Source of the DNA: Gemmatimonadota bacterium
Lineage (GTDB): Bacteria; Latescibacterota; UBA2968; UBA8231
Assembly: GCA_018660835.1 (NCBI GenBank)
Contig: JABJJN010000011.1
Coordinates: forward strand, 149,067 to 213,066
DNA: 64,000 bases
Reading direction: 5' to 3'
Under the pieces are notes generated by a model. The model was not told where the DNA came from. It worked only from the letters and a program-made list of their open reading frames with translations, and did no database searches. Below are positions 6,401 to 7,909 of this stretch, piece by piece. The position numbers were made by a program, and so were the translations under genes. Position 1 is the stretch's first letter; the number at the start of each line of letters is the position of its first letter.

Positions 6401-7909
6401 TCTTACTCTGTGGGTACGCAACCGATCCTTCAGTACGGGGCCAAAATCCTCCAACCCCGTAAACAGCGCCGTATCCGCGAAAGACGCTGACAACATCTGG
6501 CTGAGAAACCGGGCTTGTCGGTCCAGGTGATCGAACTGCACTCGGTCAGGTGTATCAAGAGGCGTATTCACCTGAAACCGCGCGTCATGCACCGTGACGA
6601 AGGCCAACGCCGGTAGCCCCACATCGAGGGCGACTTCGCTGTCGACGGACACACCGTCTGGCACGAAGGTGGACCAATCCATTCCTCTGATCGGGCTGAT
6701 CCCATTCACGAGCACCCGTGACGGGTCGCGTCCCAGACCAGGAGCCACAGCCTCAGCGTAGCGCGTGAAGCGTCTCCCGAAGGGCACGAAAAAACGCTTG
6801 AGTCCAAAGTCGTAGGTGTTGTTCCAGATCCCTAGCTGGTCCGTCTTCGTCGACAGATCGAGGCTGATGAACAGTTTGGTTGGCAGTGGCTCGAGCAGAC
6901 GCTTGGCATAGTAGGGATGTGTACGGATGTGCCGATTCAGGAAATCGACGACACCACTCATCGCCTGGAAGTGGGCACCGGTGAACAGCAGCAGCACCGT
7001 ACGTTCCGGCGGATGATCACGCAGATGGCGAGCGACCTCGAGCAGAGCCGCCGCACTGCTGGCCGACTCGGCAGAAGGAGCCAATGAAGGCGTCGTCGCT
7101 ACGCCATCGTAATAGGCCTGCACAATGATTCGATCCCGCGCGAGTGTCGAATCTGTTCCAGGGATCTCAATCCACAGATTCCAGGCGGTGCGCTCACGCC
7201 AGTTCATGCGACTGTGCAGGCTCACATCAAGCTCCTCGCCAGGTGTGAGCAGACGCCGACGCAGTTTCTCCCCTTGGGCCGCATCAATCCAGAAGCGTGG
7301 AATATTGACAGGCTGCAACATCGACTTGTCTAGGGTCTGGCGATACGTCGCCTCATCCGGCGCGATAAAGACAGCCGCAACTGCCCCCAAAGCTGCCGCC
7401 CGCAGCCAGTGGTCCCAAGAGTCGAACTCCATCAGGGCGATACTACCGTCGAGACGACGCCCGTCGAAGTCTTCGTATTCGCCCTTGCCCAGATACACCA
7501 GTGGACCAGAGATGCCTGCAGGACCGGTCGTGGTCGTGCGCGGACCATTCGGCCACAGTCCATAGATTGTGAGATCCCGCGCTTCATCGAGCAAACGCAG
7601 AGTGCTGTGTCCCCCCACTTCAACGGGCACCGTCACAGACAGGGTCTCTTGGCGAACCGCACCGAGGTCAAGATCCTCGATCTGCGTGCGAATCCAATTC
7701 GCCGCATGCTCAGCACCCGAGTGGCCCGTCAACCGCGACGCATGGGAAGCGAGCTCCTCAACAGTGGCACGAACGCGTTGCTGAGGGTCATCGATCTCGA
7801 TAAGGCGGGTCGCACCCACAACACTGGCGCTCAACAGCAGACCCAGCACGATACCGATCTGGCGGCAACCAGAATCCCATCCACCTCGCGTCTGCATGGG
7901 GTGTTTCAT
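3404..7909 (-). CDS. M28 peptidase-like domain (degenerate) fused to FtsX-like ABC permease/MacB-type domain
   Basis: 1501 aa. N-terminal M28-like fold motifs (RIIVQAYYDG, AALLEVARHLRDH, VLLLFTGAHF) followed by FtsX motifs (MRRRRLRTGLTLLTLTLLTF; LNAMMGAVYERFREIGIYSSVGLAPMHIALLFIAEA). Confidence 0.8.
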   Translation of the reverse strand: MKHPMQTRGGWDSGCRQIGIVLGLLLSASVVGATRLIEIDDPQQRVRATVEELASHASRLTGHSGAEHAANWIRTQIEDLDLGAVRQETLSVTVPVEVGGHSTLRLLDEARDLTIYGLWPNGPRTTTTGPAGISGPLVYLGKGEYEDFDGRRLDGSIALMEFDSWDHWLRAAALGAVAAVFIAPDEATYRQTLDKSMLQPVNIPRFWIDAAQGEKLRRRLLTPGEELDVSLHSRMNWRERTAWNLWIEIPGTDSTLARDRIIVQAYYDGVATTPSLAPSAESASSAAALLEVARHLRDHPPERTVLLLFTGAHFQAMSGVVDFLNRHIRTHPYYAKRLLEPLPTKLFISLDLSTKTDQLGIWNNTYDFGLKRFFVPFGRRFTRYAEAVAPGLGRDPSRVLVNGISPIRGMDWSTFVPDGVSVDSEVALDVGLPALAFVTVHDARFQVNTPLDTPDRVQFDHLDRQARFLSQMLSASFADTALFTGLEDFGPVLKDRLRTHRVRVRAFPRRSETPDRAIANAVVLVNGGTHKGVDYGRVFRTDEEGEATIPGLYTGGSSINAFGLDEETGDVVYAPDLSTRAAKFHGKALSSGRLNWSVRWATDTKTIVVFPTVTKTLYGLTSPNILRGLRGMKIIDNGGIAPRQFGYFFGGLWSTDLAVIYAPREADEDDRRLKMLVGTATQRMLFINSQGGANEVEAKGVGYDLSTHPMLPTELLALRDMWNLNDARLHMMRTHAIENQRLTRLHGAGERLLHNAQTAVDELRWSDYIGHVRAGLGVTMRAYPEVVATLNDVISGIVFFLALVIPAAFFGERLLFSFADVRWQIGGFGALLLVIWTLISQVHPAFDIAHPLIILLAFAIMAMAIFVLGLVSSRFNRFLKEFQAAKAKVHQTDISRLSAAYAAFLLGISNMRRRRLRTGLTLLTLTLLTFTVLSFTSFRPDVRFLVFNLDHEGTYEGVLIRDRGWNGLMTVNLDYARSHFENYGVVAPRGWYISYFQEEKRYTEVRWDSVSVQASAMVGLTPQEREVTGLGNDLVAGRWLLEGDEEVCLLPMAMAEPLGIDSAAVEAGTAQVQIFGKRFAVIGLFEAAIFESATDLDGEPLTPADFQMSSTDALGPGAGPTMVVVEDEVQFDVRPFVHLSAENVLIMPYNTLQVVFGDLRSIGIRLRSDAPVESLIEDYLVRITGTLFAGLRDGEQISVASYTSMGITSVEGMEALLVPMLIAALIVLNAMMGAVYERFREIGIYSSVGLAPMHIALLFIAEACVYAVIGVTLGYLFGQGLGKVLVTFDLLSGLSLNYSSLAAIVSALMVMAVVMLSTLYPAQLAARSAVPDTVRRWQPPPPEGDEWSFEFPFMVGETEVDGITGFLAGFFNAYGEESIGVLYADKVRVITDQNPQGQRELALQLLLWLAPFDMGVSQFVQIEFTPSSTRGAYGVEVYIQRLSGQDTYWQRVNSGFFNALRKEFLLWHTMADGDKAYHKDAARKMLAAGSDAVFVDERGLA

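Follow-up and report, generated by a model that had tools for sequence, protein, structure and literature searches.

An M28-like ectodomain with a conserved replacement of the canonical zinc site, fused to an FtsX-type permease in an operon with probable OPT-superfamily transporters

To our knowledge, non-catalytic receptors derived from M28 peptidases are known mainly from animals (the transferrin receptor and nicalin), and we know of no OPT transporter that works with an ABC module. In the type VII ABC protein MacB, the periplasmic part is moved by ATP with no transport through the membrane domain, which is termed mechanotransmission (PMC8277102). M28 is not mentioned in a 2024 review of pseudometallopeptidases (PMC11266112), and our search of the literature on M28-FtsX fusions and on DUF6785/DUF6784 found nothing. 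Here we analysed a gene for which a reading of the DNA had predicted an M28 pseudoenzyme, or else a changed metal site, fused to an FtsX-like permease. The gene lies in the window, by which we mean the whole 64,000-nucleotide stretch of DNA that was analysed, from an uncultured member of the Latescibacterota; its features and those of its neighbours are collected in Table 1.

Table 1. Positions in the window of the fusion gene, the parts of its product and the neighbouring genes.
Feature	Position	Strand	Basis
M28-like ectodomain / FtsX-like permease fusion gene	3404..7909	(-)	ORF, 1501 aa, ATG start
Hydrophobic N-terminal segment, residues 16-36 (signal peptide or anchor)	7802..7864	(-)	hydropathy
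Ectodomain of M28 fold with replaced canonical zinc site, residues 34-480	6470..7810	(-)	Pfam, AF2, Foldseek, profile
PA-domain-like insert within the M28 fold, ~residues 136-240	7190..7504	(-)	alignment to 2ek8/6hc6; Pfam PA
Y266-Y267-D268, M28 H-x-D position (ligand His replaced by Tyr, Asp kept)	7106..7114	(-)	alignment
E281, position of the bridging ligand Asp	7067..7069	(-)	alignment
H313-F314, aligned with the catalytic and the ligand Glu	6968..6973	(-)	alignment
D351, ligand Asp, retained (SLDL)	6857..6859	(-)	alignment
N448, aligned with the final ligand His (the majority of the family has Asp)	6566..6568	(-)	alignment
Middle domain, beta-rich, with helical stalk, residues 491-785, periplasmic	5555..6439	(-)	AF2 model
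Three predicted TM helices preceding the FtsX module, residues 786-887	5249..5554	(-)	AF2 helices, hydropathy
FtsX/MacB-type module: TM1 (915-935), MacB-like periplasmic core domain, TM2-4	3926..5167	(-)	Pfam, PDB profile, Foldseek
Soluble C-terminal domain, residues 1346-1490, cytoplasmic by topology	3440..3874	(-)	AF2, Foldseek
DUF6785+DUF6784 transporter, upstream operon gene, 4-base overlap with fusion gene	7906..10161	(-)	
900-aa OPT-like membrane protein, downstream operon gene, 4-base overlap with fusion gene	705..3407	(-)	
M42 aminopeptidase, divergent	10283..11449	(+)	Pfam M42, 79.5 bits

The overall design that had been predicted was borne out. Pfam M28 (residues 244-325, 23.5 bits for a cut-off of 21.3) and Pfam FtsX (residues 1217-1327, 46.6 bits) are matched in one and the same frame. 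The ectodomain has the fold of an M28 metallopeptidase, as seen from the above-threshold Pfam score, from an AlphaFold (AF2) model (pLDDT 93.3, pTM 0.91) whose top PDB match by Foldseek is the M28 aminopeptidase 2ek8 (E=7.9e-23; next come BSAP, transferrin receptor 1 and PaAP), and from a profile match to the same enzyme (E=2.4e-17). Among 56 homologues, Pfam M28 scored in 45 and Pfam PA in 12, and CarboxypepD_reg was weakly matched in two, in the middle domain. The AF2 model of the membrane part is weaker, of moderate quality (pLDDT 81.6, pTM 0.58), with MacB and LolC as Foldseek matches; MacB is also the PDB profile match of the FtsX module (E=1.8e-13). The fusion protein has the MacB-like periplasmic core domain of a type VII ABC permease. 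Pfam FtsX was found in 48 of 48 homologues and MacB_PCD in 20 of them, with no MacB_PCD score in the window protein itself. The TM2-4 part of the module carries the coupling-helix motif YERFREIGIYSSVGLAP, and E1237, R1238 and G1249, with adjoining residues, are invariant. We rejected the idea that the three TM helices following the M28 domain represent a degenerate version of FtsX TM2-4 (hhalign probability 0.6%), and the same comparison leaves unsupported the idea of the M28 domain as a stand-in for the first of the core domains in a duplicated permease. For the C-terminal domain, Foldseek gave weak Bet v1/START-like similarity only (E ~0.006-0.05).

The motifs quoted in the original prediction, IIVQAYYDG (starting at residue 261 of the fusion protein), SLAPSAESASSAAAL (residue 275), LLFTGAHFQAMSG (residue 307) and ARFQVNTPLDTPDRV (residue 443), are real and all lie within the fusion frame, between positions 6530 and 7840. 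Residues were paired by profile alignments to solved M28 enzymes and to canonical M28 proteins encoded in the window's genome, and the alignments reproduce the four substitutions that had been read by eye: His to Tyr266, Asp to Glu281, Glu-Glu to His313-Phe314 and His to Asn448. In place of the five ligands H, D, E, D and H, the window protein has Y266, E281, F314, D351 and N448, and the catalytic Glu that precedes the ligand Glu is absent, with H313 there instead. Replacement thus affects the catalytic Glu and four of the five zinc ligands, as had been claimed for most of the site, but D351, alone among the ligands, is kept, as is the Asp of H-x-D (D268), and both had been missed. The fusion protein is very probably not a canonical M28 peptidase.

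Conservation at the site was assessed in 120 ectodomains, 85 of them non-redundant at 95% identity. Among these 85, position 266 is Y in 79, F in 5 and H in 1; position 268 is D throughout (85); position 281 is E in 74, D in 4 and another residue in 7, with N, S, T or A occurring in some family members; position 313 is H in 83 and N in 2; position 314 is F in 50, H in 33 and Y in 2; position 351 is D in 80 and E in 5; and position 448 is D in 76, N in 6 and another residue in 3. The family pattern is Y/F-Y-D, E, H, D and D, other phyla included, and the majority of the site columns rank in the better-conserved fifth of the domain. None of the 120 ectodomains has the canonical set, or even as many as three of its residues at the six positions (catalytic and ligand), in line with the consistent loss across homologues that had been named in advance as support for the prediction. 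The substituted pattern also holds in 16 members of greater divergence, a large share of them from other phyla and some with lengths of 2400-2550 aa, except in one more degraded copy (L177), and a search for an active ancestor with canonical ligands found none among the 120 ectodomains or these 16 members. Comparison of the M28 region with the same-genus orthologue indicates purifying selection (dN/dS ~0.05, with dS near saturation). The recurrence of the substitutions in 85 homologues and in nearly all of the 16 divergent members, with the M28 region under purifying selection, argues that the replacements represent a consistent change, neither decay nor chance. In the window's clade, Asn, Gly or Ala replaces the family Asp at 448, which suggests that the new site is relaxed there. 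One paralogue, L177 (G049:C54), has a replacement site that has decayed further (APFD / GQRS / LSLT / SSLRD), and three very long forms (L173, L174 and L175; 2367-2551 aa) have insertions of several hundred residues within the M28 region.

Because the replacements are shared by 85 non-redundant relatives, with the canonical set in none, the ectodomain is likely a 'pseudo-peptidase', and presumably catalytically inactive. The term pseudoenzyme, as originally proposed, holds in that the canonical site is lost family-wide, but the site has been rebuilt with conserved acidic and His residues and not simply lost. Alternative conserved residues in the metal site, which had been named in advance as evidence against a pseudoenzyme, are nearly what we found, given the frequencies of E281, H313, D351 and D448 above. 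The strong conservation of acidic or His residues at the ligand positions means that both 'pseudoenzyme' and 'changed metal site' survive: the conserved E/H/D/D set may bind metal and could be catalytic.

Members of the M28-FtsX family occur in almost every genome of the class to which the window belongs, and in part of its phylum. Latescibacterota is the label of most relatives; the same-genus orthologue, 85% identical, lies on contig PATE01000064.1 of a marine MAG labelled Gemmatimonadetes, and among the named matches beyond the phylum are records of Zixiibacteriota, Omnitrophota, Elusimicrobia, TA06 and 'Vermiphilus'. There are four paralogues in the window's genome.

Newly noted here is a conserved operon in which the M28-FtsX gene accompanies two probable OPT-superfamily transporters and, in some genomes, is fused to one of them. 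A DUF6785 homologue lies beside the fusion gene in 55 of the 80 named loci, and a homologue of the 900-aa OPT-like protein in 52, always on the same strand; in G018, M28-FtsX and DUF6785/6784 form a single frame of 2088 aa (L066, G018:C1:3377603-3383389). Similar frames of ~2100 aa occur in G006 and G020-G024. A Pfam search with the window's own 900-aa protein gave no match, but relatives of this protein reach 48.7 and 35.1 bits against Pfam OPT (PF03169, cut-off 25.8), and hhalign relates DUF6785 to the 900-aa family (93%, E=3.7e-7). Since these relatives exceed the OPT cut-off and DUF6785 is homologous by profile, both neighbours can be placed in the OPT superfamily, the window's 900-aa protein by way of its relatives' scores; direct hhalign comparisons of DUF6785 and of the 900-aa family with OPT proteins were not significant. 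OPT proteins move metal chelates too, so that membership leaves a peptide substrate unproven. DUF6785-type transporters are hugely expanded, with 16 scored matches in the window's genome (G000) and up to ~60 candidates per genome in its relatives, and none in 14 well-known control genomes. The neighbouring M42 aminopeptidase has its metal motifs (alignment to 1vhe) and adjoins the operon in 14 orthologous loci.

No ABC ATPase was found beside the fusion gene in the window's operon. In other lineages, from several phyla (G047, G051 and G101), M28-FtsX and OPT are followed in order by genes for a 293-aa protein, a PqqD-like protein, a mini-FtsX and an ATPase of LolD type. In G047 and G051 the frames of the ATPase and/or the mini-FtsX were located by a separate search and not from the ORF table. 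Most of these parts adjoin the M28-FtsX operon in G102 and G379, and lie upstream of it in G246. The mini-FtsX (~220 aa) consists of an FtsX domain without a periplasmic core. Genes for the 293-aa and PqqD-like (RRE-type) proteins stand between the OPT and mini-FtsX genes at L219:10237-11669 and L076:7513-8864. Both an ATPase orthologue (at least 68% identity to the G051 ATPase) and the mini-FtsX were present in 20 of 20 tested M28-FtsX holders, 8 of them outside the phylum, and in 0 of 13 non-holders (Fisher p=1.7e-9, a value that ignores shared ancestry); the 293-aa protein was present in 18 of 20 holders and 0 of 10 non-holders. In the window's genome, the ATPase (C46:113369-114070 (-); motifs GPSGSGKS (Walker A), LSGGQ and LADEP) and the mini-FtsX (C46:114140-114811 (-)) are encoded together, unlinked to the fusion operon, and the 293-aa gene lies behind an M28-FtsX paralogue at C101. 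A second LolD-like ATPase without a permease gene nearby (G000:C92:260773-261519), which was the first orphan ATPase found, is not favoured as the partner, as its identity to the operon ATPase is 57%, against 77% for the one on C46. Judged from sequence, the ATPase and mini-FtsX are probably true partners of the fusion protein.

The rebuilt site, together with the peptide-transporter-like genes and the matching ATPase, suggests that the fusion protein is a peptide-handling receptor or transporter part, and probably not an enzyme. Computation gave directly the fold, the substitution throughout the family, the operon with its gene fusion, and the co-occurring partner genes. Beyond these we infer the assembly of a complex, its peptide ligand, its substrate, the direction of transport and a mechanism, as follows. 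The fusion protein would be the large subunit of a type VII (MacB/LolC/FtsX-like) ABC complex, with the non-catalytic M28 and PA domain as a periplasmic sensor arm, and the pocket with Y/F-Y-D, E, H, D and D at the former di-zinc site would bind a ligand. That this ligand is most likely a peptide or a peptide terminus is suggested by the descent of the domain from M28 peptidases, by the OPT partners and by the neighbouring M42 peptidase. The ABC core would be completed by the mini-FtsX, which has no periplasmic domain, and by the LolD-like ATPase encoded elsewhere in the genome. ATP-driven movement of the arm (mechanotransmission, as in MacB) may load the ligand, or release it, for the OPT-superfamily permeases encoded alongside, and these would carry out the membrane transport. 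An ATP-driven periplasmic peptide receptor feeding OPT importers is thus a reading that we hold tentatively, as quite possible though short of probable. The position of the partner ATPase outside the fusion operon in the window's genome counts against an ABC complex, and the weak START-like match of the C-terminal domain counts against a peptide, since the ligand could be a lipid instead. One might speculate further on a hybrid machine in which the pseudo-peptidase FtsX, the mini-FtsX and the LolD-like ATPase load or gate OPT-superfamily secondary transporters, a proposal that we consider doubtful as it stands; this joining of transporter classes, widespread in uncultured phyla, appears not to have been described.

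Other explanations of the site have to be weighed against a non-catalytic receptor. The above-threshold Pfam M28 match and the retained D351 and D268 might indicate an ordinary active M28 peptidase whose ligands have been mis-aligned, but independent profile alignments put the substituted residues at the ligand positions and no ectodomain of the 120 holds three or more canonical residues, which makes this explanation highly improbable. A changed metal site, in which E281, H313, D351 and D448 (with H314 in ~40%) would coordinate another metal, perhaps a single one, and the domain would still be a hydrolase or a metal-dependent binder, is less improbable. Nearly every member has an acidic residue or His at these positions, and D351, a known ligand, is retained. 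With His in place of the catalytic Glu, the E151H mutant of the Aeromonas aminopeptidase has moreover been reported to be functional (Bzymek et al. 2005, cited in PMC3426542), and the corresponding PDB chain, 2anp, reading AAHEVGLRG, is the best AAP match to the family profile. The potential of the replacement residues as ligands, with the function ascribed to this mutant, makes a changed metal site possible. Nevertheless, position 314 is mostly Phe and 266 Tyr or Phe, 281 tolerates N, S, T or A in some members, the window's clade is without D448 (N, G or A), and no member has kept the canonical set, so that we regard a changed metal site as rather unlikely.

The peptide can be questioned as well as the site. 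The M28 domain may be a protein-interaction scaffold, as in nicalin and the transferrin receptor, within an envelope scaffold or a lipid/lipoprotein mechanotransmitter; the complex would then move lipid or lipoprotein, or control envelope enzymes, and the OPT genes would be regulatory passengers. This would agree with the closest solved relatives of the FtsX module (MacB, YtrF and LolC/LolF), with the presence of nicalin (E=4e-7) and transferrin receptor 1 (E=1.3e-5) among the sequence matches of the ectodomain, and with the weak START/Bet v1-like match at the C-terminus. The adjacency to OPT genes and the fusion to one of them across distant lineages fit peptide handling better, however, as does the intact neighbouring M42 peptidase, and we consider a scaffold unlikely.

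The peptide receptor that we tentatively prefer would recast a seemingly degenerate peptidase as a testable peptide-handling system of several genes, in organisms not yet culturable. It also carries a warning for metagenome surveys, in which such proteins should not be counted as peptidases. The family shares with M28 aminopeptidases (Aneurinibacillus AP, 2ek8; B. subtilis YwaD/BSAP, 6hc6; MEROPS M28) the fold, the PA insert, the ligand Asp (D351), the H-x-D Asp (D268) and the P-x-D-T loop, but differs from them in the replacement of four of the five ligands and the catalytic Glu throughout the family, and in the fused permease. With type VII ABC proteins (MacB, LolCDE, FtsEX) it has in common the FtsX TM module, a MacB-like periplasmic core domain and, here by co-occurrence, a probable LolD-like ATPase partner; it departs from them in the added M28 ectodomain, the three extra TM helices and the C-terminal domain, in a partner permease subunit without periplasmic domain, and in the link to OPT transporters, probable members of that superfamily (Pfam OPT; DUF6785/DUF6784) being here the operon partners of the fusion gene. 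Like the transferrin receptor and nicalin, it has an M28-derived membrane ectodomain without the catalytic set, but those proteins are eukaryotic and single-span, whereas the fusion protein is bacterial, belongs to a multi-span FtsX permease and comes from a family with conserved replacement residues of its own. It may thus represent a bacterial counterpart of the M28-derived receptors, with replacement residues fixed in several candidate phyla, carried on an ABC-type permease, and linked through its operon, a gene fusion and patterns of co-occurrence with OPT transporters and one specific ATPase.
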